Position numbers and translations under genes: made by a program
Notes under the pieces: generated by a model
Told to the model about the DNA's origin: nothing
Database searches by the model: none
The model's input: only the letters and a program-made list of their open reading frames with translations
Shown: positions 32,102-51,168 of the stretch, piece by piece
Position numbering within the stretch: position 1 is the first letter of the stretch
Layout of the letters: the number at the start of each line of letters is the position of its first letter
Assembly: GCF_005503555.1 (NCBI RefSeq)
Contig: NZ_SCNG01000002.1
Location: 806,001 to 870,000, forward strand
DNA from: Rudaea sp. 3F27F6
GTDB lineage: Bacteria; Pseudomonadota; Gammaproteobacteria; Xanthomonadales; Rhodanobacteraceae
Reading direction: 5' to 3'
DNA: 64,000 nt

Positions 32102-32170
32102 GGGGCCGCCAATCGGCACCCGTTGGAGCAAAGCTCTGGGGAAAGTGGAGGCGCGGGAAGGAAAGACTTT
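32102..32170 (-). promoter_or_regulatory. Conserved 5' leader L1 (DUF4942 gene)
   Basis: On the minus strand it starts with AAAG-N-CTTTCCTTCCCG, then a CACTTTCCC box, then a hairpin with loop GATT (GCC-GATT-GGC closed by GGG/CCC), ending 13 bp before the ATG. Four other genes (48683, 49261, 50345, 51078) have the same arrangement. Confidence 0.7.
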
Positions 32171-32233
32171 GCCGCCCGCCGGCGCCAGCGGCGCAACGAG
32201 GGCTTGGCCAAGAGTTTCTTGTCGCCTGATTGA

Positions 32234-32255
32234 GAAGCCCGCTTGTGCGGGCTTC
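32234..32255 (-). terminator. Hairpin after DWL-repeat paralogue 2
   Basis: Stem GAAGCCCGC / GCGGGCTTC with loop TTGT, the same stem as at 15264-15285, 21 bp after the gene stop. The T tract on the minus strand is poor (TCAATC). Confidence 0.6.
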
Positions 32256-32276
32256 GTTCTCTTGTTGTCGTCGGCG

Positions 32277-32927
32277 TTACATTCGCATCAGAAGGCCTCG
32301 CTCCTGAACTTGTTCGGGCTGCCGCTCCGGCTCGACGTTGGGATCTGGGCGGGTGCGCATCCGCAACCAATCGGGTTTGCTCTCTTGCGTTTCCCTGGCT
32401 TGTTCAGTGGGCCGCGATCGCATCGTCAACCAATCCGGTGCTCCTTGCTTTTGGGGCAGCTCCGGCTCGCGCATCCCCTGGTCCGAACGAATGACCGTTG
32501 ACTGTTCATCGTCTGTGATCGCCGAACGCTCGGGATACGAGAATCCGGCGTGCTGAAAGTCACCGAGTCGCGCCGATTCCACACTCGACAACTGGCTGCG
32601 CTTCTCATACCAAGCTTGAAACGCGGCCGATTCTGCCCGGGCCTCAGCCAACGTGTGTGGCTGAAAATCGGTGTGATGGGGGATCTGTGAAAGCTCTTGG
32701 ACGCCATCGACAAAGCGACGTTCGATGATTGGCGAACCAAACTTCCCCTGATGTTCGCGGGCAAACGTGGCGACAAAATCCATCTGGCGATAATCGTCAT
32801 CGAGCGTGGCCTTGGCAGCCTGCCGGCCTTTCGGACCGTCGGCGAAGTCGCCGTGTTCGATGGGTCGCTCCAACGGTTCGCCCTGGGCGTCGGTGAGGGT
32901 GCGGATAAAAAGGCGTGGTTGTTTCAT
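32277..32927 (-). CDS. DWLxxRSRP-repeat tail protein, paralogue 2
   Basis: 216 aa. The N-terminal ~150 residues are unlike paralogue 1 (MKQPRLFIRTLTDAQGEPLE..., FVATFAREHQGKFG). The C-terminus has two D-W-L-x-M-R-S/T-R-P motifs at 165-173 and 186-194, 21 residues apart, then a tail nearly identical to that of the 15306 protein and ending in LLMRM. ATG 32927 follows TTGGAGACTCCC. So one tail cassette is attached to two different N-terminal parts. Function unknown. Confidence 0.72.
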   Translation of the reverse strand: MKQPRLFIRTLTDAQGEPLERPIEHGDFADGPKGRQAAKATLDDDYRQMDFVATFAREHQGKFGSPIIERRFVDGVQELSQIPHHTDFQPHTLAEARAESAAFQAWYEKRSQLSSVESARLGDFQHAGFSYPERSAITDDEQSTVIRSDQGMREPELPQKQGAPDWLTMRSRPTEQARETQESKPDWLRMRTRPDPNVEPERQPEQVQERGLLMRM

Positions 32928-33000
32928 GGGAGTCTCCAAAAAGGTCAAAGGGAAGTCTCGATACCATGACCGACGCTTTTCTGTGGCCCGGCTACTCGAA

Positions 33001-33060
33001 ACTCACTACCCCCGATGGGGAACCGGAATGAAGTCCTTTACTCACTACCCCCCGAAGGGG
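33001..33060 (-). promoter_or_regulatory. Two tandem tetraloop hairpins in the 5' leader of 32927 gene
   Basis: On the minus strand CCCC-TTCG-GGGG (33040-33060 copy) and CCCC-ATCG-GGGG (33001-33020 copy), each followed by GTAGTGAGT, 39 bp apart. The first has the very stable UUCG tetraloop. Tandem copies in an mRNA leader suggest translational or stability control, or a protein-binding array. Confidence 0.5.
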
Positions 33061-33117
33061 ACCCTTGAAGCTACTAAAGTCAGCTTCCCACAAAACGCCC
33101 GAACGTCAAGATTCGGA

Positions 33118-33136
33118 GGATGACATGATGTCATCC
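33118..33136. promoter_or_regulatory. 19-bp perfect palindrome (operator-like)
   Basis: GGATGACAT-G-ATGTCATCC, 9-bp arms around one central base, just upstream of the putative -35 box for the 32927 gene. The element encodes an XRE regulator (37267) and several RHH/HTH proteins that could bind it. Confidence 0.6.
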
Positions 33137-33216
33137 ACTTTATAGGGCCCGCTTTAATAGCGGGATACTGCCAACCGCGTTTTCCGCTCTCGCGTTCTGT
33201 GCCTCACCCACGAAAA

Positions 33217-33236
33217 AGCCGGCTCTTCACCCGGCT
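33217..33236 (-). terminator. Terminator after DUF6573 gene
   Basis: Stem AGCCGG / CCGGCT with an 8-nt loop, followed on the minus strand by TTTTTCG; 30 bp after the gene stop. Confidence 0.72.
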
Positions 33237-33987: not shown

Positions 33988-36900
33988 TCACGGACACGTG
34001 CCGCTCAAGCCCGGTCCCGGGCCGAGCACGTTCAGGCCGGTGTTGCCGCCCGTGTTGAAGATGTCGACGTATTGCGGGATGACGCCCGGGATGGCCGGCG
34101 AGCACGAGCCCGGGAGGTTGTTTGTCGAGCTGCTCGACACGAACCGCGGTCCATACGAACACACGCTCGTGATGCCGTTCCACTTGATGGTGACTTGGAA
34201 CGTCGAGTAGTAGTTGCCCTGCGCGTTGAGCTGCGGCGCGTTGAAGTTGCCGCAGCTGCCCTGCGTGCCGGACGGGCACGAGTTCGAGCTGCACGTCTGT
34301 CCGGTCATGCCGCTGCCCGGCGCCGAGCAACCCTTCCAGCTGACATACGTGAACGGGCTCGACGGGCTGGCGCACACCGGCGGTGGTGCCACACACGCGC
34401 CAGGCGGAGCCGTCGCTGGCGACCACGGTCCTGTCGTGGGCGTGACCGTTCCGACCGGCGACGAGCAGGTGTAATCCGTCGTCTGAGTCTGCGTCCACGA
34501 GCCGGTCGTGTTGATGGGGCACGCGCCCGGTCGCGTCGCCGTCGAAGGCGGCGGCGCCGAACAGGCCGGCGCGCAAGATTGCGGTGTCGACGTGCTGTAA
34601 GGCGTGCCGACGACAGGACCGACCGGCGTCGAACACGAGAAGTTTTTCCCGGTCGTCGTCGTCCCGCTCGTCGTGCCATACGGCGCGTTCGAAGCAAGCT
34701 GACCTGGGGGGCACGGTGTCGGGTTGGTGGTCGCCGTCGGCGGCGGCGCCGAGCAAATCGGCGAGCAAGACTGTGGCGTCGACGTGCTATACGGCGTGCC
34801 AACGACAGGGCCGATCGGTGTCGAGCACGAGAAGTTTTTCCCGGTCGTCGTCGTTCCGCTCGTCGTGCCATACGGCGCGCTCGAAGCAAGCTGACCTGGC
34901 GGGCACGGTGTCGGGCTGGTATTCGCCGTAGGCGGCGGCGCGCTACACGCGGGCGAGCAGCTCTGCCCTATCGGTGCGCTCCATGCGCCATACGAAGGCG
35001 GGCCGAGTGGGCCGACGGGCGTAGAGCACGTCTGGTTGACGCTGCGCGACTGCGTGCCGCTCGTCGCGCCATACGGCGCGGTCGAAGCCAGCTGGCCTGG
35101 GGGACAGGGCGCCGCGGCCGTCTGCGTCCCACTCGTCGGCGAGCACGTGGGTGAGCACGAACCAGGCGTCGTCGTGGTGAAAGGTGTTGCGGTCACCGCG
35201 CTGACGGGCGTCGAGCAACTGTAAGTGATGCCCGATGTCGTGGATCCACTCGTCGTGCCATACGGCGCGGTTGAAGCAAGCTGGCCTGGCGGGCACGGTG
35301 TCGGCGTGGTGGTCGAAGTGGGCGGCGGCGCCGAGCAAATCGGCGAGCAGCTCTGCCCAGTCGCCGCGCCCCACGGACTCACGGTCGGAACAACGGGCCC
35401 CACCGGGGTCGAGCAAGCGTAGCTCGTGGTCTGGGTTTGCGTGCCGCTCGTCGTGCCATACGGCGCGGTCGAAGCCAGCGTTCCTGGTGGGCATGGCGCT
35501 GCGCGCGTCGCAGTGGTCGTAGGCGGCGCCGCGCACACCGGCGCACACGATTGCCCGCTCACCACCCACGCGCCAGCTGACGGCGGATTGAGCGGCCCGA
35601 CCGGAGTCGCGCACGAGTAGGTCGTCGTTTGTGTTTGAATGCCGCTGGTCGGGCCGTAGGGCACGGTGCTCGCCACCGTCCCCGGGGGACACGGCGCGGC
35701 CACCGTGGTCGTCGACGACGGCGGCGCGATACACGCAGGCGAGCAGCTTTGGCCGGTTACGGTCCACGGCGGATTCGACGGCGCGCCAAGCGGGCCGACG
35801 GGCGTGGCACACGTCTGCGTGTTGATCCGGGACTCGGTTCCGCTCGTCGCGCCATACGGCGCGGTCGAAGAAATCGTCCCCGGCGGGCATGGAGCTGGAG
35901 CGCTCTCCGCCGTCGAAACCGGCGTGCACGCGGGCGAGCAGCTTTGACCGCTCGGCGCGCCCCACGCGCCCGTTGCTGACGTCACCGGTCCGACGGGAGT
36001 CGAGCACGAATACGTGGTGGTCTGGCTCTGCGTTCCACTCGTCGCTCCATACGGCGCGCTTGAATCGAATTGCCCTGGTGGACATGGTGCGGCTCGCGTT
36101 GCCGTCGTCGGCGCCGGCGCGGCGCAAACCGGCGCACACGATTGCCCGGTGATCGTCCAGGACGGATTGGACGGCGCGCCGAGCGGGCCGATGGGCGTGG
36201 CGCACGCCTGCGAGTTGACGCGCGATTCGGTGCCGCTCGTCGAACCGTAAGGCGCGGCGGAAGAAACTTCCCCCGGTGGACAGTTGGCGGGAGCGCTCTC
36301 CGGCGTGCTCGTGCCGGTGCAAATCGGCGCGCACGAGAACGTCGGCGACCATGCGCTCCAAGGCGTCCAGCTGACGGTGCCGCCGCCCGAACAAAATGCG
36401 TTGCGTGCGCTCGTCTGCGGAGCGCTGGCGAGGTATTGATAGGGGCCCGCGTTCGAGATGAGCTCGCCGGATGGGCAGTTGAAAGTTTGGGTTTGCGTCT
36501 GGCCCGGCGGCAAGCTCGTGGAGCAGCTGTTCGGCCCCAGTGGATTCGTCGTCGCGCCGTAAATGAAATCGACCTCCGACGCGGGAGCGGCCGCGCACAA
36601 GCGCGTGAGCGTCGGCATGTCGATGGCGTGCGTGGACGTGTTGAGCACGCTGGTGCCGCCGACTTGGACATCGTAGAAGCCGGCGCCGGCGTTCATCGCG
36701 AAGTTGGCGCACGCCGAACTGCCCACGTTGGCGTAGGCGATTTTGAAACCATTATTAGAACTCGCCGGCGCACCGTTGACCGACACCGGTGCGCTCGACA
36801 CGGTGACCGCCCCGCCCCAGGTGTTGATGACGCTGCCGCTCGGAAGCACCATCTGCGACGGAAACACCCGCCCTGCCATGGCGTCGTCGTTGGTCATGCC

Positions 36901-37161
36901 CTGGAAGCCGCCACGGCTGCTGTAAACGCGCACGACGCTTTCAGCCACCGTGCCTACATTGTCGACCTCGCGATCGACCTGGGCGCCTGTCTCGGCTTTC
37001 TGGTAAAGCATGTAGCCGCCAGCCAGGACGGCGACCGAAACAGCCGATACGAGGAGGAGTTCGACGAGTGCCAGGCCCTGGGGCGCTCCGTGCAAAGCGT
37101 TATGAACCGCGGTGGGCAGCGGTGCCGGAACAGGACTACGCGACACGGAACAAGGGCGCAC
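33988..37161 (-). CDS. Giant PilV-like prepilin with about ten Cys-rich repeats
   Basis: 1057 aa from GTG 37161 (CGGAG seven bases upstream; a stronger AAGGAGG lies 21 bp away). Prepilin site Gly29-Leu30 with Glu34 at +5 (LALVELLLVSAVSVAVLAGGYMLY). Residues ~65-280 form a pilin-like domain; ~281-930 hold about ten repeats of ~65 residues with the pattern C-x(13)-CPPG-x(4)-S-x-PYG-x-TSG ... C-S/A-TPVGP ... GQSC-x-P; the last ~125 residues form a distinct Cys-rich end. This resembles the minor tip pilin PilV of conjugative thin pili, with a very long adhesive stalk. It would be exported by a type IV pilus machine not encoded here. Confidence 0.8.
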   Translation of the reverse strand: MRPCSVSRSPVPAPLPTAVHNALHGAPQGLALVELLLVSAVSVAVLAGGYMLYQKAETGAQVDREVDNVGTVAESVVRVYSSRGGFQGMTNDDAMAGRVFPSQMVLPSGSVINTWGGAVTVSSAPVSVNGAPASSNNGFKIAYANVGSSACANFAMNAGAGFYDVQVGGTSVLNTSTHAIDMPTLTRLCAAAPASEVDFIYGATTNPLGPNSCSTSLPPGQTQTQTFNCPSGELISNAGPYQYLASAPQTSARNAFCSGGGTVSWTPWSAWSPTFSCAPICTGTSTPESAPANCPPGEVSSAAPYGSTSGTESRVNSQACATPIGPLGAPSNPSWTITGQSCAPVCAAPAPTTATRAAPCPPGQFDSSAPYGATSGTQSQTTTYSCSTPVGPVTSATGAWGAPSGQSCSPACTPVSTAESAPAPCPPGTISSTAPYGATSGTESRINTQTCATPVGPLGAPSNPPWTVTGQSCSPACIAPPSSTTTVAAPCPPGTVASTVPYGPTSGIQTQTTTYSCATPVGPLNPPSAGAWVVSGQSCAPVCAAPPTTTATRAAPCPPGTLASTAPYGTTSGTQTQTTSYACSTPVGPVVPTVSPWGAATGQSCSPICSAPPPTSTTTPTPCPPGQLASTAPYGTTSGSTTSGITYSCSTPVSAVTATPFTTTTPGSCSPTCSPTSGTQTAAAPCPPGQLASTAPYGATSGTQSRSVNQTCSTPVGPLGPPSYGAWSAPIGQSCSPACSAPPPTANTSPTPCPPGQLASSAPYGTTSGTTTTGKNFSCSTPIGPVVGTPYSTSTPQSCSPICSAPPPTATTNPTPCPPGQLASNAPYGTTSGTTTTGKNFSCSTPVGPVVGTPYSTSTPQSCAPACSAPPPSTATRPGACPINTTGSWTQTQTTDYTCSSPVGTVTPTTGPWSPATAPPGACVAPPPVCASPSSPFTYVSWKGCSAPGSGMTGQTCSSNSCPSGTQGSCGNFNAPQLNAQGNYYSTFQVTIKWNGITSVCSYGPRFVSSSSTNNLPGSCSPAIPGVIPQYVDIFNTGGNTGLNVLGPGPGLSGTCP
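34374..36321 (-). repeat. ~195-bp tandem repeats inside the giant prepilin gene
   Basis: About ten in-frame units, each coding CPPG...PYG-TTSG...C-STPVGP...GQSC. Units 8 and 9 are nearly identical, units 1 and 3 form another similar pair and units 2 and 5 share much sequence, so unit exchange by recombination is likely. Confidence 0.8.
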
Positions 37162-37266: not shown

Positions 37267-37710
37267 CTACTTCTTAGCTTGAGCCAGGCGTTCGGCCACT
37301 GCCCGCTTGCCCATGGCGCGCACCGCGGCAATGGCCGGAAGCTGGGACCGACGCGGCGTGGTTTTCTTCTGTTCCCACCCGTAGACGGACTGCCCGGAGA
37401 CGCCCAGCAACTTGCCCATCTGCTCGGCAGAAATCCCCAGGCGTTCACGCAGAGCGCGAAAACCGTCGGCACGAAAACGAAAACCCGCCTTCCCTTCCGG
37501 TTCGGGACGCATCACCGCCGCCGTGGCTTTTCCGCCGTGCTTGGCCAGCGCTTTCAAGGCCTTCTCCGTCTGAAGCTGCTGGCGCTTCAACGCAGCGATA
37601 TCTTTGCGCTGACGGGTAGATGCCCGCTGTAAGGCGGCGGTTTGGCTCTTCAATTCGCGCCGGGCGAGCCGCACGATTTCATCTTTCAACAGTTTTGCCA
37701 AATTTGGCAT
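37267..37710 (-). CDS. XRE-family transcriptional regulator
   Basis: 147 aa from ATG 37710. An N-terminal coiled-coil-like arm (residues ~1-60, basic and Gln/Leu-rich) precedes a Cro/C1-type HTH (FRALRERLGISAEQMGKLLGVSGQSVYGWEQKKTTPRRSQLPAIAAVRAMG). It may be an element-wide repressor; candidate targets are the GGGG-CCC motif or the palindromes at 33118 and 38989. The Shine-Dalgarno is weak. Confidence 0.82.
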   Translation of the reverse strand: MPNLAKLLKDEIVRLARRELKSQTAALQRASTRQRKDIAALKRQQLQTEKALKALAKHGGKATAAVMRPEPEGKAGFRFRADGFRALRERLGISAEQMGKLLGVSGQSVYGWEQKKTTPRRSQLPAIAAVRAMGKRAVAERLAQAKK

Positions 37711-37786
37711 TGCCCAAGGTCCGGAGTGGCGGCATTTCAGTTTAACACTGCCCGCCACCCCCTTCCGTGCCCTACCCGCGCCCAGT

Positions 37787-38086
37787 TCAGCCATTGGCGA
37801 AGTCGGGATCCTCGAAGAACAGTTTCAGCACTCCGTCTTGGTGGAAGCGCGTGAAGCCGCAGCGGTGAAGCAATGCGTGGAGCTCCGCCAAGTCTTCGTA
37901 GTCGGTCTTGCCGTTCGCGTCGTGGTAGAGGCCCTGGTTGCCCACCAGGCGCCAAATGGTCTTACCGCCCGCCACAGGCGTCGATTGGACGCGCGCCGCC
38001 GCCGGCGCCACGACTGCCATGCGCTTGAAGTCGTCCTCGGTCATTGCTGCATTGTGGATTTTATTATTTTGTTTATTTTTACTCAT
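37787..38086 (-). CDS. Hypothetical protein
   Basis: 99 aa. TTAAGGAAAATAAAATG gives a strong start. N-terminal Asn/Lys-rich arm, then MAVVAPAAARVQSTPVAGGKTIWRLVGNQGLYHDANGKTDYEDLAELHALLHRCGFTRFHQDGVLKLFF. No membrane segment. The family is not recognised. It lies between RadC-like and XRE genes on the same strand. Confidence 0.58.
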   Translation of the reverse strand: MSKNKQNNKIHNAAMTEDDFKRMAVVAPAAARVQSTPVAGGKTIWRLVGNQGLYHDANGKTDYEDLAELHALLHRCGFTRFHQDGVLKLFFEDPDFANG

Positions 38087-42561: not shown

Positions 42562-43556
42562 GCGGACTTCTTTCGACTCTCCCGGCGCAAGTCCTGGACC
42601 TTCTTGTCCAGTCGAAACGCCTTGAACGCGGGTTGCCGCAGCAACCCTTGCCCACCGACGCCTTGGTAAAACGCTTCGAGCACGAGCTCGGGCTTGATCC
42701 AGATTGCCAAGGCTCGGTCCTTGCGTTCCATCAGTGTGATGTTCGCCGGCGGCTCGTCGACGATCATTGTGTTGACCCGCTTCCGCAACGTTTTCAATTC
42801 CTCGTCTTTGAACCCGGTGCCGACACGCCCACAATAGACGAGCTGCCCGTCGAGGTATTTGGCGAGCAACAGCGCGCCAATGCCCGATCGCGAACCCTTC
42901 GGCTCGGTGAAGCCCACCACGACAAACTCGTCCGATGGGCGGCCCTTCACCTTGACCCAGGCACCGCTTCGGTCCCCGCGGTAATGACTCTCCACGCGTT
43001 TCGAGACGATGCCTTCAAGGCCTGCCTTGGTCGCCTGCGCGAACACGCCGGCGCCGGGCCCCACCACGTGCTCGGAGTAGCGCAGCAAGGGGTGCGGGCG
43101 ACGCTCGATCAAGTCTTTGAGCAAGCGCTTGCGCTCCACCAGCGGAACGGCACGCAGGGATTGGCCGTCCAAATGAGGCAGGTCAAAGAGGACGTAGACG
43201 GCCGGCTCTTTCGTTTCGGCCGACAGGCGGGATTGGAGCGCGTTGAAGTCGTCCCGCCCATCGCGCAGCACTACCATCTCGCCATCCAGTTGCGCGCTTT
43301 TCAGTTTCAGCGCCGCCACTGCCGCCGCGAGCTCCGGCACCTTGCGTGTCCACTCGATGGCATTGCGCGACCACAGCCGCACGTTGCCGTCGGCAACCGC
43401 GGCGACGATGCGGTAGCCGTCCCATTTCGTTTCGTGCAGCCAGTCGTCGCCCCGCGGCGGTTCCTTCTGCGACCGGCAAAGCTCCGGAGCAAACGCACCG
43501 TCGGTGATCGTTTCAGCCCGCGCGCCGGGGGGCGCCTTGACCTTCCGCGCGGCCAC
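42558..43556 (-). CDS. ATP-dependent DNA ligase, LigD ligase-domain type
   Basis: 332 aa. Adenylation motif K44-W-D-G-Y-R in ETKWDGYRIVAAV, then SAQLDGEMVVL (motif III region), VLFDLPHLDGQSLR, EGIVSKR (motif IV) and WVKVKGRPSDEFVVVGF (motif V), with the OB domain after it. This is the ligase domain of bacterial NHEJ LigD without polymerase or phosphoesterase domains, and no Ku gene is visible. Seals nicks with ATP; it may serve element repair or circularisation. Confidence 0.92.
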   Translation of the reverse strand: MAARKVKAPPGARAETITDGAFAPELCRSQKEPPRGDDWLHETKWDGYRIVAAVADGNVRLWSRNAIEWTRKVPELAAAVAALKLKSAQLDGEMVVLRDGRDDFNALQSRLSAETKEPAVYVLFDLPHLDGQSLRAVPLVERKRLLKDLIERRPHPLLRYSEHVVGPGAGVFAQATKAGLEGIVSKRVESHYRGDRSGAWVKVKGRPSDEFVVVGFTEPKGSRSGIGALLLAKYLDGQLVYCGRVGTGFKDEELKTLRKRVNTMIVDEPPANITLMERKDRALAIWIKPELVLEAFYQGVGGQGLLRQPAFKAFRLDKKVQDLRRESRKKSA

Positions 43557-43625
43557 GACTGCTAAGAGGCCAACAGGTGTTCGGGGAGACGCGGAGCGTC
43601 GGCGTTTGTGATGGCAATCATGAAG

Positions 43626-43892
43626 TCATGCTTTCGGATGATGGTCACCCGAAATTACCTTGCGCGAGCTATCGGTGCAATCGAGGCATTCGCCTTGCGG
43701 CTTATGGTCACTCACGGCCCGGACCGCGGTCTCGATATCCGATAGCGTCAATCCTTCGAGAATGCCGGATGGCATTACTCGAATGAGAAATGGCCAAGGC
43801 CCGTGAGTCTCCATATCGGGGAGGGAGCCCATTCCGTCCCAGATCAATACGCCGTCCTTCTTAGCCAGCTTCGCCATTTTCGAGGCATTCAT
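43626..43892 (-). CDS. Small hypothetical protein with C-terminal Cys pair
   Basis: 88 aa; GGGAGAGATGGAAA precedes the ATG. Contains KLAKKDGVLIWDGMGSLPDMETHGPWPFLIRVMPSGILEGLTLSDIETAVRAV and a tail C-L-D-C-T-D-S-S-R-K-V-I-S-G-D-H-H. A degraded copy of the tail is at 39629-39682. No family recognised. Confidence 0.55.
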   Translation of the reverse strand: MNASKMAKLAKKDGVLIWDGMGSLPDMETHGPWPFLIRVMPSGILEGLTLSDIETAVRAVSDHKPQGECLDCTDSSRKVISGDHHPKA

Positions 43893-43911
43893 TTTCCATC
43901 TCTCCCAGAAG

Positions 43912-44217
43912 TTAACCGTTGCGCCTTGCTTTCCATTCTTCGACCGCCGCGTTCACGTCGTCGGCTTCGGTCGGTCCCTCAAGTCGAAGGCCGGCGTCGA
44001 GCAAAGAGCCGACGATGGCGCGCAGCTCGACTTTTGCCGCTGCCTCGTCCGCATACGTGTCCTGCCAGCGCGTCGCGCTCCATCCGAGCATGAGGCCGGA
44101 CAGGCCAACCTCGGGGCGCGGCGGATCAGGACGGGACAGCAGGCGACGCACAGTCGGCGTGTCGCCGGCAAAACAGGCATTCAGCAAACAACGCTCGTCG
44201 AACGGCAGGAGGGCCAT
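43912..44217 (-). CDS. Ankyrin-like small protein
   Basis: 101 aa from ATG 44217 (GGAGGGCC close upstream). FDERCLLNACFAGDTPTVRRLLSRPDPPRPEVGLSGLMLGWSA is an ankyrin-type repeat, followed by LRAIVGSLLDAGLRLEGPTEADDVNAAVEEW. Starts 5 bp after the stop of the previous ankyrin gene, so they form an operon from the promoter at 44847-44875. Confidence 0.62.
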   Translation of the reverse strand: MALLPFDERCLLNACFAGDTPTVRRLLSRPDPPRPEVGLSGLMLGWSATRWQDTYADEAAAKVELRAIVGSLLDAGLRLEGPTEADDVNAAVEEWKARRNG

Positions 44218-44222
44218 GGCGG

Positions 44223-44570
44223 TTACATCCGCGGCCGCGGTCGAAGAGCCGCAGGGGCAGCCTGGGGTAGCAAATCGCTCCACCCTTGCTGGGCCAGGCG
44301 ATGGAACTCGGACGAGGCCGCCCGTCCGAAAATATTCATGCGCTCGATGTCGGCGCCGGCGGCGACCAACAGGGCGACGCTTTCGCGCACCACGTCGTGC
44401 TGGTCAAAATTCTTCACCGCGCTCACAGGGGCGAGCAGGCAGTGGAGCGGCGTTCGGCCGAGCGAGTCTTCGCGGTTCGGATCGTCGCCGAGCGCCAACG
44501 CCCGAGCGATTTGCGCCGGACTGCGCCGCATGGCAGCCAGGTGGATGAGAGAAGAGCCGGTGGTCAACAT
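44223..44570 (-). CDS. Ankyrin-repeat protein
   Basis: 115 aa. Two repeats: SLIHLAAMRRSPAQIARALALGDDPNREDSLGRTPLHCLLAP and RESVALLVAAGADIERMNIFGRAASSEFHRLAQQG. Soluble, Arg/Pro-rich end. Part of the operon that starts at the TTGACAACC-type promoter. Confidence 0.75.
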   Translation of the reverse strand: MLTTGSSLIHLAAMRRSPAQIARALALGDDPNREDSLGRTPLHCLLAPVSAVKNFDQHDVVRESVALLVAAGADIERMNIFGRAASSEFHRLAQQGWSDLLPQAAPAALRPRPRM

Positions 44571-44597
44571 GACGGTAGTCCTTGATGGGCTAACGGA

Positions 44598-44795
44598 TTA
44601 GATGCGGCGCCGAGCTGGCGCTGAGCGCCCGGCGTTGATCGACCCGGACAAGGCTTGTGCCTGCTTCTGCGCGAGCGCATGGAGGACTCGGCGGGTTACC
44701 AAGGCTTGTATCGCTTTGCCTGCCGCTTGATTTGACTTGCTCGTTGTGGAGGGTTTCCAGCAAGCAATATAATGAGAACATCCGATAGTAAGCAT
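44598..44795 (-). CDS. Possible small first gene of the ankyrin operon
   Basis: 65 aa, basic, with SNQAAGKAIQALVTRRVLHALAQKQAQAL helical part. It begins ~50 bp downstream of the -10 box at 44847 and ends 27 bp before the ankyrin gene. Weak ribosome-binding site; the call rests on position and open frame. Confidence 0.35.
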   Translation of the reverse strand: MLTIGCSHYIACWKPSTTSKSNQAAGKAIQALVTRRVLHALAQKQAQALSGSINAGRSAPARRRI

Positions 44796-44810
44796 CGTGG
44801 CACCTGTTTT

Positions 44811-44875
44811 AGGGGGGCCCTATTAACGAGGGGCCTTCTTGGTCACCAGTTAAGCAGCGGGTTGCTGGTTGTCAA
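44811..44875 (-). promoter_or_regulatory. TTGACAACC-type promoter of ankyrin operon with GGGCCC motif
   Basis: Minus strand: -35 TTGACA (44870-44875), 17-bp spacer, -10 TAACTG (44847-44852), then GTTAATAGGGCCCCCC (44812-44827) downstream of -10. -10 sequence is identical to that of the parA operon promoter. Confidence 0.7.
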
Positions 44876-45273
44876 GAGCATTTGCGAAGGTTCAGCTCGC
44901 TCTCCATCGCAGCTTTGCTCCTCACCGTGACTGCTGCACGCGCACCACCCGATACCATCCATGCGCAGGGCTCACGTTTTCCGTCGGTGTCGAAGTCGAA
45001 AGGGTCCCCGCCTTCATAGACCGCAACAGCCGAAGGCTCGTCGGAGAGAACCGCGGCGCGCAACGCCTTGAGCTGCGCGCCCAATGCTGCCAGAGCCACC
45101 GCGTCGAGATCGCCGCCCAGCCAGAGCCCTTCGCGCCCATCAGCTTCTACAGAAATTTCCCATCGCCCCGCCACCGCGCCAGCACGTCTGTCTTCACCAA
45201 ATGCTTGGTATGCACGCGCCAAGGCGGAAGCTTTCGCCCTGGGCGCGGCGTCCATTACCCGGATCGTTTTCAC
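44872..45273 (-). CDS. Hypothetical protein coupled to the primase gene
   Basis: 133 aa. Start overlaps the primase stop by 4 bp (ATGA), so it is translationally coupled. Contains RAKASALARAYQAFGEDRRAG, WEISVEADGREGLWLGGDLDAVALAALGAQLKALRAAVL and two-Cys end. No family recognised; perhaps an accessory of replication. Confidence 0.58.
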   Translation of the reverse strand: MKTIRVMDAAPRAKASALARAYQAFGEDRRAGAVAGRWEISVEADGREGLWLGGDLDAVALAALGAQLKALRAAVLSDEPSAVAVYEGGDPFDFDTDGKREPCAWMVSGGARAAVTVRSKAAMESELNLRKCS

Positions 45274-46790
45274 GGCATGCTCCGCGCGTAGGGTTTGACG
45301 CCGTTGACATGGAGATAAACGAGGCGCGGTTTTTTCGAGTCAACGGCTTCAGAGACCTGACCCGCCATCATGTCATCGGAGTTTTTTCCGAGGTGGTTGT
45401 AAAGCCGCGTCCAAAATTCATTGTTCTGAACGGCCTTAACATTGGTGTTCAGGCAGAACTGATTGTAGTCCTGGTAGACGTCTTGACGCTTCGTGCGCAC
45501 TTCGGGGTCATGACGCACCGAATTGTCCTCGATGTATTGAAGGACGTTGTCGGCAGCGTATTTCTGAGTGCGCGCGAGCGCCTGGACTGCGGCGGGCAAT
45601 GGGTTTGGGAAGTTGCCACGCGATTCGAGACGGACGGCGCCTTCAAGCACCCAATCCAGAACCTGTGCCATCTCCTCTGGGTTTTCAGTAATGAGCTTGT
45701 GGTAATCCACAACGCGCTCATTGGAAAAGCGGTCCATCTGCACGAGGAAGGGGATGGGCAAGACCTTGGACCAGAAACCATAGGAATGGTCGGTAACACG
45801 CAATGCCTTATTGATTGCAAGAAATAGTGAGGCACGGGGGACAATCGTCCGGTAGCCGCCACTTTTTTCTTCGACCGAAATCGGGTCACGCGACACGATG
45901 GCCTTCATGATTTGCTCGACATCGCCTCCCAGAAAGTCCGGACACTCCGACACGGTCGCCAGCGTCGCACCGACCAGTTGAGTCATGGCAAACCGTCCGT
46001 CCAAATGACGGAGCGAGAGCGCCTGATTGCGCGGATGGAGCTGCCGAAGGATGTGAAGCAAAGTGGACTTTCCGTTGCTTCCTTCGCCCTGGAGCCAAAA
46101 GCATTTCTCAAAAGTGCGTGAGAGCACGGTCGAACCGACGGCCTCCTGGAGCAGGCCTCGCACGTCGAGATCCGGCATAAAGAGGTTGAGGTATTTTCCG
46201 AAGGCCCCGCTGGGACTCACTGGCCGTGGTGTGTAGGTGCCATCAGCAGCCACACGACTCGCATCGAATACAGCCGGCACGACATAGGTGAGCCCAACGT
46301 CTTTGCTCGGCTTCTCTGCCTTGAGCGATACTTTCCCCGCCTCGTCCGTCACGAGCCTCAAGTAGGCTCCTCGCACACCGATTACGGTCCCTTGCTGGGA
46401 CGTGTTGACCCACTTCTCCTTGCTTTCGGAGGCCAGGAGTGTGGCGGTAATCGAGGCGCTCTTGGCTCCTTGAGCGGAGCACTTGTTCGGGCAGAACGAT
46501 TTGAGCCACTGAAGCGCGTGCGCGTGAGCCTGCTCGGTTTTCAATACCTCCCAATAGGCCTCACCGTTGACGTCTCGCCATCGGTAAACCGTTCGGTCAA
46601 TTTCAGATCCCTCACCCGCACCGGCTCTTCCACCGATTCGCAAATCCGAGTCGGCGAAAAAGGAGTCGGCATAGCGCAACTCGAACGACGGGCCACCCCG
46701 GTTCTTGGAAGCCGGGAATTGGACAACGTTTGATGCTTGACCGCCTTTTTTTGGGCGGCCCTTGACTGCAAAGCCTTCTGGGGCGAACAT
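45270..46790 (-). CDS. P4-type primase/helicase (D5 family) replication protein
   Basis: 506 aa from ATG 46790 (CTAGGAGCAAAAAC in front). The C-terminal helicase has Walker A GEGSNGKST at 235-243, TLATVSECPD (B motif region) and IVPRASLFLAINKALRV sensor, the SF3 helicase of the phage P4 alpha/D5 family. The N-terminal part (TVYRWRDVNGEAYWEVL...AHALQWLKSFC) is not a recognisable primase core, so priming ability is uncertain. It should melt the origin at ~47.15-47.41 kb and drive replication of the excised element. Confidence 0.88.
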   Translation of the reverse strand: MFAPEGFAVKGRPKKGGQASNVVQFPASKNRGGPSFELRYADSFFADSDLRIGGRAGAGEGSEIDRTVYRWRDVNGEAYWEVLKTEQAHAHALQWLKSFCPNKCSAQGAKSASITATLLASESKEKWVNTSQQGTVIGVRGAYLRLVTDEAGKVSLKAEKPSKDVGLTYVVPAVFDASRVAADGTYTPRPVSPSGAFGKYLNLFMPDLDVRGLLQEAVGSTVLSRTFEKCFWLQGEGSNGKSTLLHILRQLHPRNQALSLRHLDGRFAMTQLVGATLATVSECPDFLGGDVEQIMKAIVSRDPISVEEKSGGYRTIVPRASLFLAINKALRVTDHSYGFWSKVLPIPFLVQMDRFSNERVVDYHKLITENPEEMAQVLDWVLEGAVRLESRGNFPNPLPAAVQALARTQKYAADNVLQYIEDNSVRHDPEVRTKRQDVYQDYNQFCLNTNVKAVQNNEFWTRLYNHLGKNSDDMMAGQVSEAVDSKKPRLVYLHVNGVKPYARSMP

Positions 46791-46853
46791 GTTTTTGCTC
46801 CTAGTTTGTATACGCAACCCTGCCCTGGTCGGCGGGGTTGTGCTTTTTTGGCT

Positions 46854-47051
46854 TTAGGCCGCTTTTTCCTGGCGCAGTCCCGACTGCCTCGCCAAGTAAC
46901 CCAGCAACAACTGCCGCACGAGCTCCGTTCGTGTCCGTCGCTGGCTAGCCGCTTCGCGGTCCAACCGGTCGATGAGAGTGCGGTCCAGTCGCATTGCCAC
47001 CATCTTGTTTTGCTTTGGCCGACGGACCATCAGTGGGCTCACGTTGTTCAT
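46854..47051 (-). CDS. RHH (CopG-like) regulator
   Basis: 65 aa: NKMVAMRLDRTLIDRLDREAASQRRTRTELVRQLLLGYL is a ribbon-helix-helix domain. ACTGGAGAAAAGT precedes the ATG. Directly upstream lie two ACGTAT direct repeats spaced 11 bp (47082-47098), an operator-like site. Probably controls the primase gene and itself; typical copy-control position beside an origin. Confidence 0.8.
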   Translation of the reverse strand: MNNVSPLMVRRPKQNKMVAMRLDRTLIDRLDREAASQRRTRTELVRQLLLGYLARQSGLRQEKAA

Positions 47052-47433
47052 TACTTTTCTCCAGTGCTGCAGACGTCGATACGTTGTCTATACGTTTTCG
47101 ATGCAATCAGAACATTCGCGAACGTCAAGCCCCACCCATAGTTGGCGCCGGAACAGGGGGGTGTTCCCGCCTGTTCCCGGAAAAATCCTTTTGAATCAGA
47201 GTCAGCACAGGCCTCACATACCTCACAGGGGTTTGCATGAGTTTGTCGAAAAGCAGGAGGACTCCTTACCTCGCGAAACTCCATTGCAAACCGCAAATGC
47301 GCCTACCCCCTGTTCCGCCGTTCCGTTGGGATTTTTCACCACTAACTTCCTGATTGAATTCTGGTTACAGCGGAACAGGGGGCGTGTTCCTGAAAGACCA
47401 CGCCCCTGTTCCGATCCAGCTATCGAAGGCCAA
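47052..47433. other. Non-coding replication region
   Basis: 382 bp without a supported gene between the RHH regulator and the N6-methylase gene. Contains the ACGTAT repeats (47082-47098), the GGAACAGGGG iterons (47148-47413), tandem CCTCACA (47211-47228), inverted GTTTGCA/TGCAAAC (47230 and 47285) and an AT-rich stretch (47330-47370). Confidence 0.6.
47148..47413. other. Candidate replication origin with GGAACAGGGG iterons
   Basis: GGAACAGGGG at 47150-47159 and 47372-47381 on plus, and its complement at 47307-47316 and 47403-47412; the shorter TGTTCC also at 47162-47167, 47172-47177 and 47385-47390. Inverted pairs (GGAACA...TGTTCC) recur. Phage P4 alpha binds GGTGAACAG iterons; here the ~2 kb-distant P4-type protein makes the analogy fitting. 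Confidence 0.6.
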
Positions 47434-48210
47434 TCAGCCGGTTCGGAGAGTTTCGGCAAGCCTCCGTTCCTTTTCACCCAAGCGACGCAGCAATTCCAAG
47501 CCCGCGATGTGCTGTTGCACATCTCGCCGCATGCTCCAGTGCAACGGGGGGCCTTCGAGAGTGAGACCGTCGCCAACGGAGATGTAAACGACTCCGACGA
47601 CGACGCCGTGAGCAATCTCGTTCGCAAAAATCTGCGTCGCCGTCATGAGCGAGCAAAGCGGGTCAAGGTCATTCCCCTGAAGAACCATGCCCCAAACCCC
47701 CGCAGAACCCTCCACCTGTAAGCGCCTGCGAATGTGAGCCAACAAAAGCGCACCTGCCCCACAGGATGGGTCTAGAACCTCATACAGTGTTGGTCGCATT
47801 GGGGTTGCGCGGTCGAGAAACCGTGCGGCCCCCGTTGCGAGGTTAGGAGGTGTGAAGAATTGGGCCAGTTGTCTTGACCCAATTGAGTGCTGGTGCATGT
47901 CACCAAGAATGTCCGCAAACGGCTCCGCGCGCACCACGGCGTCGAGGTAGGCGCTCGCCGCTTCAACGGAGGGCTCGTCGATGACGTTCCGCTCTTCCAG
48001 AAAAAAACCAAAATCGAACTCCGGTAAAGCCGCCAAACCATACTCATCGGAACCTGCCGACCTCGCTTGGTGAAGCGCGTTCGTCAACGCCGTCACGGCC
48101 ATCCGGCACGTGATGCCGAGTGCATCACGCAGCTCGATTCCCTTCACATGCGCCAGCTGCTCGATGGCGCGCTGTAGTTTCTTAACTGGTTGTTGTTCTT
48201 TCTGGCTCAT
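47434..48210 (-). CDS. N6-adenine DNA methylase-like protein, no visible NPPY motif
   Basis: 258 aa. Contains RQLAQFFTPPNLATGAARFLD and the SAM motif I VLDPSCGAGALLLAHI with GNDLDPLC (motif II), as in type I M-subunit methylases. After GDGLTLEG the usual catalytic NPP-Y/F motif is not present; the protein ends ~45 residues later. It may be truncated, or a SAM-binding family member without methyl transfer. The following gene's stop overlaps its start by 4 bp. Confidence 0.68.
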   Translation of the reverse strand: MSQKEQQPVKKLQRAIEQLAHVKGIELRDALGITCRMAVTALTNALHQARSAGSDEYGLAALPEFDFGFFLEERNVIDEPSVEAASAYLDAVVRAEPFADILGDMHQHSIGSRQLAQFFTPPNLATGAARFLDRATPMRPTLYEVLDPSCGAGALLLAHIRRRLQVEGSAGVWGMVLQGNDLDPLCSLMTATQIFANEIAHGVVVGVVYISVGDGLTLEGPPLHWSMRRDVQQHIAGLELLRRLGEKERRLAETLRTG

Positions 48211-48683
48211 GGCGAAACCTCCGCCACATCTTCCCGTCCGTTAATGTAGTTTTCTACAGCGCTTTCGATTTCGGACTTGATTGCGAGATCCATAAACAAC
48301 ATCCGCGGCAGGGACCTGTCCGGTTGGGCCGGAGCCATCAACGCGAGGAGTTGAATTTCCGTGCCGATGAAGTTTACAAAGAATAAATCGGCGTCCGTCC
48401 ATGTCTTATTCACCCTTTCGACGGACTGATAGCACGCCTCAATTGCTTCAAATGGGAAGCTCTTAATTTGAGACTGCCCGAGGGCTTTAATGATCTCCCT
48501 GGTCAGCCTCGGGGTTGCGGCGAGGCCAATGACCGTATGTTGTGGACCAAACCGAAATTTCTTAAGCGGACCTCCATTCCATCCTCCTTCTCTAACAGTG
48601 ATGGACACTCTGGAACCAAAATCCCGTTCGACCACGCCGAGCATCAGTTCATCAAATTTCGCCGCGGACATATAGGTATTCAT
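48207..48683 (-). CDS. Hypothetical protein behind leader L2
   Basis: 158 aa from ATG 48683 (AAGGAGAAAGTC). Contains AAKFDELMLGVVERDFGSRVSITV, FRFGPQHTVIGLAATPRL and FVNFIGTEIQLLALMAP, likely a mixed alpha/beta soluble fold. Preceded by the conserved leader at 48702-48774. Function unknown. Confidence 0.6.
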   Translation of the reverse strand: MNTYMSAAKFDELMLGVVERDFGSRVSITVREGGWNGGPLKKFRFGPQHTVIGLAATPRLTREIIKALGQSQIKSFPFEAIEACYQSVERVNKTWTDADLFFVNFIGTEIQLLALMAPAQPDRSLPRMLFMDLAIKSEIESAVENYINGREDVAEVSP

Positions 48684-48701
48684 GACTTTCTCCTTTTTAG
48701 A

Positions 48702-48774
48702 AGAGGCACCACCAATCGGCAACTCGTGGAATCGAAGATTTCGGGAAAGTGGCCGCGCGGGAAGGAAAGGCTTT
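48702..48774 (-). promoter_or_regulatory. Conserved 5' leader L2
   Basis: Minus strand: AAAG-C-CTTTCCTTCCCG, a CACTTTCCC box, and a GATT-loop hairpin (TTGCC-GATT-GGTGG, closed by GAG/CTC), 19 bp before the ATG 48683. Confidence 0.7.
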
Positions 48775-48889
48775 CGGCAGCTCCCCTGGTTCCCCCGCTT
48801 GATTGCCTTCGGTCGCGCCGCGGATTGCTGAGGCGCCCCTCGATGGTTCCTGCGTTGATGGCAGCGATGAGGCGATTGAACGCTCACTG

Positions 48890-49261
48890 CTAGACTCCAA
48901 AAGCTTCACTTAGCGCGTCCAACAGATACGGACACCCGACCAAGGCCTCGACGAAATCCTGCGTCGTGCCTTCCTGCTTTGCCGCCTGCTCGGCGTGGAC
49001 CTCCGGGCTTCCTTTCCAGTATTTGGCGGCTTCTTCGCCGGCCTCCGTGAAATATTCCTCGAACGCTTCATCATCGAGACGGAACCATGCGCGCGCGCCG
49101 GCGAGAGCTGCCCGTAACGCCTCCTGGGAAAGCCCTTCCATCTCTTCGAGAACATCAAGCTCGTAGCGGTCGAGCGGTCTCCTTAGAGCGGGGCAAATAC
49201 TGCCCCGCCCTTCCACAAGGCTTAGCACGCTGCTCAGTTTGTCCATTTCACTTTGTTTCAT
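48890..49261 (-). CDS. Acidic hypothetical protein behind leader L3
   Basis: 123 aa, pI clearly acidic (DRYELDVLEEMEGLSQEALRAALAGARAWFRLDDEAFEEYFTEAGEEAAKYW). Starts within the 3' end of the methyltransferase gene (14-bp overlap), with GGCGGAGAAAATC ribosome site and leader L3. Acidic DNA-mimic antirestriction proteins look similar in composition, but no family is assigned. Confidence 0.58.
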   Translation of the reverse strand: MKQSEMDKLSSVLSLVEGRGSICPALRRPLDRYELDVLEEMEGLSQEALRAALAGARAWFRLDDEAFEEYFTEAGEEAAKYWKGSPEVHAEQAAKQEGTTQDFVEALVGCPYLLDALSEAFGV

Positions 49262-50345
49262 GATTTTCTCCGCCTAAAAGGGGCCGCCAATCGGCACCCT
49301 GTGGAAGCGAGGCTTTAGGGAAAGTGGGCGTTCGGGAAGGAAAGGCTTTGCTCGGGTTCCGGCCGCTCTTGACATCGGCCAAGGCCAGGTCGAGCAATTT
49401 TTTTGCGGTTCCATAGTCGAGTCGGCGTCGGTAGAGACCGTCGCGACGCAAGCCCTTGAACGCGGTGAGCAAGGAGTCCCCGCTCCGCTCCCGAAAGCGA
49501 TTCAGCCAGTGATTGGCGGCGGCGATAACGTCGCGCTCCATGCCGCGGGGGCATCCAGCAATACGGGTGATTGAACGCGACTTCCCGCTCACGTCGCCTC
49601 CGGGGATCTCCTCGCCGGAAACGAAAGCAATGCTCGCCCCAGCTAGGTTGTCGAGAGCGCGCAAACCGACGCTTCCCCCGCTCGCATTGAATTTCCATCG
49701 GTGTGCGGCAGGAGCCGCCGGCAGCACGTTCTTGAGTTGGCTATACGGCCCGAGCAGTCGGTCGCCGCTCCATACATCAAAATCCCCGCATTTTCCCGGC
49801 ACGAACAGGGCCAGACAAACTGGATGCTCGGTGTCGTGGAACATGGGCTCGGCCAGGGAGACCACGCTGTGTAAGCGGTCGTGAAACAGGCCTGCGGTGA
49901 TGAACGATTCCGGCACAACAGCGGCCACGAAATCGCAGTGCTGGAGCATGACGTCCAGTGCAACCTTGTAGAGGTCGTCGTGCGCAAAGGTAGGAAACTC
50001 TAGGCCTCGCCGCGTGGCAGAGTTTTTCGCCAGATACGGCGGGTTCGTGACGGCAACGCGGAACCCTCCGGGAAAGTTCTTCAACGAATCGCCGCGCCGG
50101 ATGGCCCAACCTTCGGCGAATTGCGATTTGGGTTCAATGTCCCAGCACGCCCACGCAGGCAACCATCCTGCCTGCGCGGCCAGGCGCACGATGTGGTTGT
50201 CCCCCGCAAACGGTTCGATAACCGCCCGGTCGTCCGTGGGCAACAAGCGCCGCCAACGTTTGAACGCCTCGTGGTGGAATGGGTTTCCGCACGTGAAATA
50301 CTGTCCAAGCCTCCGCTTGTTCGAATTGGCCTTCGTGGTTTCCAC
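49248..50345 (-). CDS. N6-adenine DNA methyltransferase (Eco57I-like class)
   Basis: 365 aa from GTG 50345, chosen for GAGGAGCAGACG in front. RRLGQYFT at the N-terminus, motif I VIEPFAGDNHIV, and catalytic N-P-P-Y in VAVTNPPYLAKN. The last ~35 residues (AFPSRTPTFPK..., GADWRPL) are encoded by leader L3 of the next gene, so the tail exists only because the leader is read through. No cognate restriction gene nearby: likely protects the element from host restriction. Confidence 0.8.
   Translation of the reverse strand: METTKANSNKRRLGQYFTCGNPFHHEAFKRWRRLLPTDDRAVIEPFAGDNHIVRLAAQAGWLPAWACWDIEPKSQFAEGWAIRRGDSLKNFPGGFRVAVTNPPYLAKNSATRRGLEFPTFAHDDLYKVALDVMLQHCDFVAAVVPESFITAGLFHDRLHSVVSLAEPMFHDTEHPVCLALFVPGKCGDFDVWSGDRLLGPYSQLKNVLPAAPAAHRWKFNASGGSVGLRALDNLAGASIAFVSGEEIPGGDVSGKSRSITRIAGCPRGMERDVIAAANHWLNRFRERSGDSLLTAFKGLRRDGLYRRRLDYGTAKKLLDLALADVKSGRNPSKAFPSRTPTFPKASLPQGADWRPLLGGENHETK
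49280..49349 (-). promoter_or_regulatory. Conserved 5' leader L3 (inside the upstream gene's 3' end)
   Basis: Minus strand: AAAG-C-CTTTCCTTCCCG, CACTTTCCC and the hairpin GGGTGCC-GATT-GGC-GGCCC, 18 bp before ATG 49261. It overlaps the last ~35 codons of the methyltransferase gene. Confidence 0.68.
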
Positions 50346-50364
50346 CGTCTGCTCCTCGCTTCGG

Positions 50365-50433
50365 AGCGCTGGCAATCAGCGCTGAAGCGGGGCAAGCAAT
50401 CGGGAAAGTGGAAGTGCGGGAAGGAAAGTCTTT
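50365..50433 (-). promoter_or_regulatory. Conserved 5' leader L4
   Basis: Minus strand: AAAG-A-CTTTCCTTCCCG, CACTTTCCC, then a perfect hairpin AGCGCT-GATTGCC-AGCGCT. The stem sequence differs from L1-L3 while pairing is kept. 19 bp before GTG 50345. Confidence 0.7.
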
Positions 50434-50452
50434 CCCCACCGCGAAAAAGAAA

Positions 50453-50472
50453 ACGGCGCCTTTCGGCGCCGT
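50453..50472 (-). terminator. Intrinsic terminator after the Dam-like gene
   Basis: Stem ACGGCGCC / GGCGCCGT with a 4-nt loop; on the minus strand followed by TTTCTTTTTC; 28 bp after the stop at 50500. Confidence 0.88.
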
Positions 50473-50499
50473 CTTAAATTGAACGTTTACACGTTCCGT

Positions 50500-51078
50500 T
50501 TACGCTGCTTTTTTCCTGCTCCTGGACTTCGCCCCTTTCTGCCACACGCCAGCCTGATCCGTGCCAAGCAGGATGAGACGACCTTCGATAGTCCCTGCGT
50601 TGACCGCAGCAACGAGGCGCCCGCGAGCCTTTTCCCCGTAAGCGATCGCAACCGACGGGCTGACCGCGGCGTTCTTTTCCAGTCCGTCTGCGTCGCTGAA
50701 CTTCAAGCGCGACGCGAAGAAAAAAATCGCCGTCGTGTTGGGATGACGAAAAACGTTCTGGTGGAAATAGCCGGTTTCAGTGCGAGCAAAGATGAGCGTG
50801 ATGCCGTTTCCATGCTGTGCCGCCTTTGCCATCCATTCACCCATCCCTTTGCCGTAGGGCGGGTTGTGGAACACAAACGACTCCTTCGGCCAAGGCGTCG
50901 TGAGCCCGTTATCGCTCGGGCGCAGCATACGGGTTGCTGTGCGCCAAGGCATACCCGACTCTGGCGTGGCCGGATCCAGGTCAAACGGGCCCAGTGCCTC
51001 GATCAACGACCGCGGCGTGAGCCACGTGGTCGTTGTCGTGGCGTTGGGATTGCGAAGTGGCACTGTAAGTGCGCTCAT
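50500..51078 (-). CDS. Phage-type N6-adenine methyltransferase (Dam-like)
   Basis: 192 aa from ATG 51078 (CAGGAGAAAGTC). Typical DNA N-6-adenine-methyltransferase phage family layout: WLTPRSLIEALGPFDLDPATPE near the N-terminus, D/N-P-P-Y-G (FHNPPYGKGMGEWM) in the middle, TLIFARTETGYFHQNVF and AIFFFASRLKF later. Methylates adenine in an unknown sequence. Own leader (L5) and terminator, so a single-gene unit. Confidence 0.88.
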   Translation of the reverse strand: MSALTVPLRNPNATTTTTWLTPRSLIEALGPFDLDPATPESGMPWRTATRMLRPSDNGLTTPWPKESFVFHNPPYGKGMGEWMAKAAQHGNGITLIFARTETGYFHQNVFRHPNTTAIFFFASRLKFSDADGLEKNAAVSPSVAIAYGEKARGRLVAAVNAGTIEGRLILLGTDQAGVWQKGAKSRSRKKAA

Positions 51079-51099
51079 GACTTTCTCCTGTTCCAAATA

Positions 51100-51168
51100 G
51101 CACCGGGAATCGATGCCTTCGGATGAGGAGGTGATCGGGAAAGTCGGAGCCCGGGAAGGAAAGGCTTT
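51100..51168 (-). promoter_or_regulatory. Conserved 5' leader L5
   Basis: Minus strand: AAAG-C-CTTTCCTTCCCG, CGACTTTCCC, and a hairpin GCATC-GATTCCC-GGTGC with one G-U pair. Stem bases differ from L4 while pairing is kept. 21 bp before ATG 51078. Confidence 0.68.

Follow-up and report, generated by a model that had tools for sequence, protein, structure and literature searches.

Five leaders of a common layout

The window analyzed here is a 64,000-nucleotide (nt) stretch of Rudaea sp. 3F27F6 (contig NZ_SCNG01000002.1, positions 806,001 to 870,000). It carries an element with genes for a TrwC (MOBF) relaxase and a TrwB-type coupling protein, and an open reading frame (ORF, 52942-54858) with an integrase-like arm-binding domain (27.4 bits against a cut-off of 27). 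Judged from these genes the element is apparently integrated and conjugative, and it probably moves between bacteria. On the minus strand of the window, five leaders (a to e) share the layout AAAG-N-CTTTCCTTCCCG-NNC-NNC-N-ACTTTCCC with fixed spacing. A first-pass annotation of the sequence had described five leaders with shared boxes, and all of them are present: the pattern CTTTCCTTCCCG...ACTTTCCC (the box pair, or box) matches five times in the window, each time over 27 nt, and never in 100 dinucleotide shuffles. The leaders, located by pattern and alignment, are as follows.

32139-32170, minus strand: leader a, AAAG-N and box pair (box pair 32139-32165)
48743-48774, minus strand: leader b, AAAG-N and box pair (box pair 48743-48769)
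49318-49349, minus strand: leader c, AAAG-N and box pair (box pair 49318-49344), within the 3' end of ORF d on the ORF map
50402-50433, minus strand: leader d, AAAG-N and box pair (box pair 50402-50428)
51137-51168, minus strand: leader e, AAAG-N and box pair (box pair 51137-51163)

Each leader runs from the box pair through 25-26 nt to a hairpin whose loop begins with GATT, then to the Shine-Dalgarno sequence (SD) and the start codon. The distance from the end of the second box to the loop G is 25, 26, 26, 25 and 26 nt in leaders a to e, and that from the loop G to the start codon is 26-34 nt; the box starts 77-86 nt ahead of the start codon, with the hairpin at roughly 42 to 14 nt, and the shared unit extends over about 85 nt. 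AAAG-N precedes the box pair in all five leaders, and the hexamer CTTTCC occurs twice per box, 20 nt (about two helical turns) apart, with both copies invariant; three more invariant positions are alignment columns 34 (A), 38 (C) and 40 (T). Identity among the leaders is 0.88 across the 32 nt of AAAG and box; it drops to 0.45 in the 17 nt that come next and to 0.26 in the 32 nt preceding AAAG. The unit therefore starts sharply at AAAG, and the unequal identities of the segments argue that the leaders are not simply the product of a recent duplication.

The genes behind the leaders had been given in the first-pass annotation as one for a DUF4942 protein, two for adenine methyltransferases and two of no recognized kind. 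This holds: a, d and e match known families, and genes b and c match none in Pfam, NCBIfam, PHROGs or PADLOC. The protein queries for a and d were one codon off, starting at 32085 (one late) and 50348 (one early), respectively.

31186-32088, minus strand: gene a, DUF4942 protein, ATG start at 32088 (PF13708, E 2.5e-42, query one codon short)
48207-48683, minus strand: gene b, 158 amino acids (aa), no family match, followed by an overlapping ORF (47434-48210) that is methyltransferase-like with a Pfam score below the cut-off
48890-49261, minus strand: gene c, 123 aa, acidic (isoelectric point 4.4, net charge -13), no family match
49248-50345, minus strand: gene d, DNA methyltransferase, GTG start at 50345 (phrog_18657, E 6.1e-44)
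50500-51078, minus strand: gene e, Dam-type N6-adenine methyltransferase (PF05869, E 1.2e-8; phrog_111, E 9.5e-31)

Leader c supplies the codons for the last 33 residues of methyltransferase d (49248-49352), and the match of d to phrog_18657 ends at residue 332 of the 366 submitted, adjoining the start of this leader. Gene d may have lost its own end when leader c was placed there. The position of leader c inside the 3' end of ORF d, with the family match stopping beside it, suggests that the unit carries its own transcription start and moved as a block.

Hairpin and Shine-Dalgarno accessibility

A hairpin in each leader, with stems that differ in sequence and keep their pairing, had also been proposed. 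Its GATT loop start stands, and a better drawing of the hairpin is obtained with a 7-nt loop in all five leaders.

32102-32121, minus strand: leader a hairpin, loop GATTGGC (32108-32114), arms GGGTGCC/GGCCCC
48703-48725, minus strand: leader b hairpin, weak, loop GATTGGT (48711-48717), arms GAGTTGCC/GGTGCCTC
49280-49299, minus strand: leader c hairpin, loop GATTGGC (49286-49292), arms GGGTGCC/GGCCCC
50365-50383, minus strand: leader d hairpin, loop GATTGCC (50371-50377), arms AGCGCT/AGCGCT
51099-51117, minus strand: leader e hairpin, loop GATTCCC (51105-51111), arms GGCATC/GGTGCT, with a basal stem extending to the SD

With the loop taken as GATTNNN a stem forms in all five leaders, pairing 32 of 40 cells over eight positions; the hairpin of leader b is absent from the minimum-energy fold of the whole leader. 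Five of the paired cells are G-U, located in leaders b, c and e, and they become A-C mismatches on the other strand, which favors the mRNA strand. The loop start has an identity of 1.00 across the five leaders and the arms one of 0.60. When the 3' arms were permuted among the leaders, the true assignment gave the lowest summed energy of all 120, with short and long arms alike, so that each arm pairs best with its own partner. Pairing and covariation are also lower in slid registers than in the true one, although the structure was drawn from the same five sequences and tests of pairing and covariation lean its way. Selection on structure, as claimed in the first-pass annotation, is only moderately supported by the shuffling statistics given below, under Interpretation, and covariation is weaker than was implied there.

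The predicted cost of freeing the SD is 7.9, 5.8, 4.5, 8.7 and 9.1 kcal/mol in leaders a to e. With the upstream part shuffled, this cost was reached in 9, 55, 105, 29 and 1 of 200 cases. The fractions of 166 reference starts at or above the leader values are 0.072, 0.163, 0.289, 0.066 and 0.060; these references are SD-bearing ATG codons of ORFs of at least 120 aa in five element regions, the ORFs being mechanical and some leader genes being among them. In this comparison a, d and e cost 7.8, 8.6 and 9.1 kcal/mol, which places all three in the top 7.2%. Burial of the SD is thus supported as a prediction in a and e and less firmly in d, and not in b and c, and it hinges on where transcription starts. 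The homologue of gene e in one sister element, G032a (47% identical; L061:16662-16740), has an unrelated hairpin that places the SD within an 8-bp stem, with an opening cost of 10.3 (top 3.6%, z -3.57).

A terminator-like candidate lies just ahead of leader d.

50450-50475, minus strand: terminator-like hairpin of 11 pairs with a T run, whose end lies 16 nt upstream of AAAG in leader d

If this hairpin works, d would have to be transcribed from within or beside its own leader. A reading of the leaders through the flagellar-sigma -10 sequence, GCCGAT, was rejected, since inspection by eye showed that d and e differ at the matching bases. When the plus strand was folded as DNA, in pieces about 20 nt longer, z-scores were -2.06, +1.02, +0.69, -3.87 and +1.05 for a to e.

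Searches for the leader sequence elsewhere

In its own genome (5.70 Mb) the exact pattern finds no box pair besides the five, and a covariance model built from the leaders scores them at 77.9-91.3 bits, with the next match at 14.2 (150 of 1364 first-look candidates scored). Among 197 genomes of the family, the exact pattern occurs in one, the source genome. The covariance model was run on the order and the phylum with about 12 first-look candidates scored per genome, so that weak relatives could escape. In the order it matched 1 of 398 genomes at E <= 1e-4, again its own; in the phylum it matched 15 of 398 at E <= 0.01, with the five known copies and one copy in each of 14 others (19.4-28.1 bits). 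We judged these 14 to be chance matches; the alignments of 10 of them were inspected, and the best adjoins similar GGAAAGG repeats. Ten stretches in GTDB r220 contigs, all of which were inspected in context, hold a single copy each, with the 27-nt spacing in one, and are also taken as chance. IMG/VR contains no match to the leader sequence, and blastn with one of the five leaders returned three partial matches among plasmids (33-42% of the query) and none among phages.

Homologues of the leader genes did not lead to further copies. Gene d has homologues in 4 of 274 genomes of the class, its own included, and the box, allowing up to three errors, is absent from the three homologue loci fetched; one of the two examined further (L021) has 36% G+C. 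Plasmid searches gave no relative of gene b, and those for gene e (31 records), DUF4942 and the relaxase gave relatives that are all below 60% identity. Protein searches of IMG/VR with d, b and a found no relative.

Rfam has no family in the window at the gathering threshold, and relaxing the limit to E 5, 10 or 1 brought no match of relevance. Among its families, radC RNA (RF01754) is a motif found ahead of foreign-DNA genes; as identities for the leader, it and the other Rfam families were set aside for want of a match. A genome search with RF01754 gave no match, and likewise none in its controls. In the open-licence literature searched we found nothing relevant on the box letters or on such leaders in integrative elements beyond PMC8708921.

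Leader sets in sister elements

At E <= 1e-60 the relaxase has matches in 9 of the 197 family genomes including the source, with 33-43% identity in the others. The first-pass annotation had proposed searching related elements with a covariance model of the five leaders; run on 17 stretches of sister elements, the model gave a single weak match of 14.2 bits. The expectation of further examples in such elements thus failed for the sequence, in the searches made, and was borne out for the arrangement: 3 of 10 sister regions show it too, built on other sequences. This came from a motif-free scan of the 60-80 kb round all 10 sister places and of six chromosomal controls, looking for 11-mers that three or more SD-bearing start regions have in common, on a single strand and at a similar distance; the strand and distance conditions were set after a trial without them on six regions, in which G032a gave one mixed-strand word. 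The scan was positive in 4 of 11 element regions (the window, G069a, G009 and G051) and in none of the six controls. From the window it recovers the box alone, and from the three sisters other sequences.

All 18 sister leaders read (nine in G069a, five in G009, three in G051 and one in G069b) contain TTGnn-N17-TAnnnT, beginning TTGCG or TTGAC in 17 and TTGAT in one. This promoter starts 71-84 nt ahead of the start codon (once 103) and is followed by a dyad private to the element, which starts 35-44 nt ahead (once 67) and spans roughly 44 to 19. The dyad is GGGGTG-n4-(C/A)ACCCC in G069a, GGGAGCCC-n5-GGG(CA/AG)CCC in G009 and GTGATCG-nn-CGATCAC in G051, and AGATATGC-n4-GCATATCT at the single gene of G069b. 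Dyad listing yields many chance dyads and was used for reading single genes only. Three exact of the seven inexact matches were aligned for G051, and five further GGGAGCCC sites outside the set were omitted for G009.

The box (77-86 nt) and hairpin (42 to 14) of the window leaders match in geometry the promoter (71-84) and dyad (44 to 19) of the sisters, and on this likeness we propose a private module of the establishment type. The G069a, G009 and G051 sets are likewise multi-gene and element-private, and their distance from the start codon is that of the window leaders. They differ from the window in combining a sigma-70-like promoter with a dyad; the window leaders keep the start of the loop constant while their arms vary. 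In G069a the arms of the dyad are conserved (0.97 identity) and the centre is variable (0.57), over 9 of the 12 GGGGTG-type sites (two on the plus strand and one at 44075 were left out), so that it looks like a DNA operator; the window, with its invariant loop start and variable arms, behaves as RNA would. An acidic protein (222/224 aa) that is 82% identical between G051 and G069a nevertheless has in each the dyad of its own element, GTGATCG..CGATCAC and GGGGTG..CACCCC, respectively.

The sister sets include the following. A candidate operator set in G069a (L064-L065, joined 15797-39569, minus strand) consists of nine gene-proximal leaders ahead of mostly small ORFs, six of which were scanned without a Pfam match. 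In G009 (L069, joined 42796-49311, plus strand) five leaders precede small proteins, three of the five with a net charge of -13 or below. Leaders of G051 (L079) lie at joined 24711, 26024 and 29802, with variants at 23736 and 31098; its 222-aa acidic protein is at 24779 and the G069a counterpart at 38510. None of the 10 genes searched against Pfam, of the 14 behind the G069a and G009 leaders, has a match, and net charge is -13 or below in 4 of 11 sister proteins. In G032b (L088, L089; joined 22701 and 55901) AGAGAGA...TCTCTCT dyads stand ahead of two starts and are possibly another private set.

Comparison with known systems

An establishment regulon in general is characterized by a sequence that recurs ahead of the ribosome-binding sites of unrelated genes on a single conjugative element, and this is the arrangement found in the window. 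We compared it with published systems as described in the cited articles. In the ArdK/CUP system of R388 and pKM101 one plasmid-encoded regulator acts on early-establishment genes, in R388 through five separate promoters with a conserved direct repeat (PMC9723621, PMC6289460). The window resembles it in having one shared repeat motif ahead of five separate units. The ArdK/CUP repeat, however, has the sequence TTGACA and adjoins the -35 of a promoter that has been mapped, whereas the window has CTTTCC boxes, no recognizable sigma-70 promoter, and a hairpin between box and SD; TTGACA is absent, by eye, from the leader strand of the leader regions inspected.

The Bacillus plasmids pLS20 (EGeRS1) and p576 (EGeRS2) carry several copies of a sequence upstream of unrelated genes or operons, in sets that differ between related plasmids (PMC8708921), and are similar to the window in both respects; EGeRS1 also resembles it in being predicted to fold. 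As portrayed there, EGeRS1 is 420-750 bp long, contains multiple inverted repeats and yielded no constitutive promoter, and EGeRS2 has strong promoters, TTATCCC dual motifs and a ribbon-helix-helix repressor. With about 85 nt, the window unit falls far short of EGeRS1 in size; the EGeRS2 dual motif TTATCCCnnTTATCCC is not seen by eye in the leader regions inspected, where the box is a different sequence. In Frpo, a single-strand fold mimics a double-stranded promoter and carries -35 and -10 in its stem (PMC11541004), and no such fold is seen at the window leaders. As far as these descriptions go, the module is like the ArdK/CUP and p576 regulons yet differs in sequence, and the precedents have neither its sequence nor its layout.

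Interpretation

The shared control element ahead of five genes that the first-pass annotation had suggested is supported, and it lies on an element bearing a relaxase and a coupling protein. We consider it somewhat better than an even chance that the five leaders are copies of one element-private promoter/leader module, to which an RNA hairpin is added, and that this module serves an early-gene (establishment) regulon. One regulator would then act on five separate transcription units of the element. Their gene content suggests that the five genes are most likely early (establishment) genes, for example methyltransferases marking the incoming DNA. The box, with its two CTTTCC 20 bp apart, would most likely be read as DNA. 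It sits where the sister elements have their -35 and -10, and a regulator of the element's own, for which an HTH protein encoded at 37267-37794 is a candidate, may admit or block RNA polymerase there. The hairpin would in that case be found where the mRNA begins, and its GAUU loop and variable stem could constitute a second step at the RNA level, acting by burial of the ribosome-binding site in at least a, d and e.

Several observations weigh against this proposal. No regulator of the box has been identified, no copy of the leader sequence was found outside this element, and 7 of the 10 sister regions have no leader set in the 11-mer scan. No sigma-70-type promoter was recognized in 48300-52600 or 31900-32500, and the sister pattern TTGnn-N17-TAnnnT occurs in none of the five window leaders, so that it is position that points to the box as a promoter. 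Terminator-like sites are no commoner in the region than expected by chance (6 versus 5.5 in shuffles). Pair counts are modest evidence for the stem: at 5, 6, 7 and 8 positions the observed value is attained in 12, 12, 16 and 4 of the 120 permutations. The aligned columns have 81.8% of their cells paired and two double-changed pairs, each reached by 133 of 500 shuffles, whereas 30 of 500 attain the covariation score; the -1 register equals the true one in double-changed pairs (2) and exceeds it in such cells (3 versus 2). Compared with shuffles, the RNA folds of whole leaders have z-scores of -0.88, -0.07, +0.71, -3.40 and -2.99 in a to e, below -2 in two of five. Since no copy of the sequence was found outside the element, there is no independent evolution on which covariation could be tested. 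Finally, SD burial is unremarkable in b and c and weakly backed in d, by the shuffle counts given above, and should the box be the promoter, the transcript may lack the strand that pairs with the SD.

Control purely at the RNA level is possible, if improbable: the CU-rich boxes and the GAUU hairpin would both lie in the mRNA and be bound jointly by one element-encoded protein or RNA, in a layout like that of nut sites or translational operators. The fixed 25-26 nt from box to loop, beside a distance of 26-34 nt from loop to start, looks as if box and loop were read together, and the invariance of GATT next to arms of 0.60 identity, the energetic preference of each arm for its own partner and the G-U pairs of b, c and e point the same way. 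On the other hand, the terminator-like site upstream of d, should it work, would allow hardly any space for a promoter ahead of the box, and a direct repeat at about two helical turns is typical of a DNA site; moreover, the box pair has no exact antisense counterpart elsewhere in the genome, and the whole-RNA folds of three of the five leaders are no better than shuffles (z above -1). Activity on the entering strand as a single-stranded-DNA promoter of the Frpo or ssi kind, raised in the first-pass annotation, is not supported and appears very improbable. Methyltransferases are plausible early genes of a conjugative element, and the plus strand of a and d is stable as DNA; that of b, c and e, however, folds no better than shuffles, the stem has about 6-11 bp, and neither a sigma-70-type promoter nor the fold that Frpo would require is seen at the leaders.

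There are two further explanations. That the leaders are a recombination or insertion unit, a cassette boundary or mobile repeat standing ahead of genes by chance, would agree with leader c replacing the expected end of gene d, as if the unit were transplantable; we regard this as improbable, given that all five copies are placed and oriented alike with respect to SD and start codon and that the box is strongly conserved while the spacer drifts. Old duplications of one promoter region, with no present role beyond ordinary transcription, would explain why the copies are confined to one element without relatives, but spacer and arms have fallen to 0.45-0.60 identity against 0.88 in the box, and we consider this account unlikely, if a little less so than the insertion unit.

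Returning to the establishment module, we tentatively put forward an extension, which we hold to be less probable than the module itself. The conjugative elements of the family may use an immunity-like private code, in which each marks its early genes with its own tag, so that the regulator of one spares the early genes of another, and in which tags are swapped while the coding sequence is kept. In the window this could take the form of a two-layer switch, with box and GAUU hairpin read together and control being both translational and transcriptional. If these proposals are true, shared leaders would name the early-gene set of an element from its sequence, including small acidic and other proteins without a family, and thereby offer a simple route to candidate anti-defence genes. 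Private tags could also explain the coexistence or exclusion of related elements, with the specificity of regulator for operator open to leader swaps.

Other features of the window

A GmrSD-type (type IV) restriction enzyme is encoded at 39694-41547, near several methyltransferases. Seven copies of CCATACGGCGCG at 34676-36058 lie inside a 1057-aa ORF (33988-37161) with a PilS N-terminal match and form a coding repeat. The ORF at 27344-28447 combines ankyrin repeats with a PilS/type IV pilin N-terminal region after them, which is an unusual pairing of domains.

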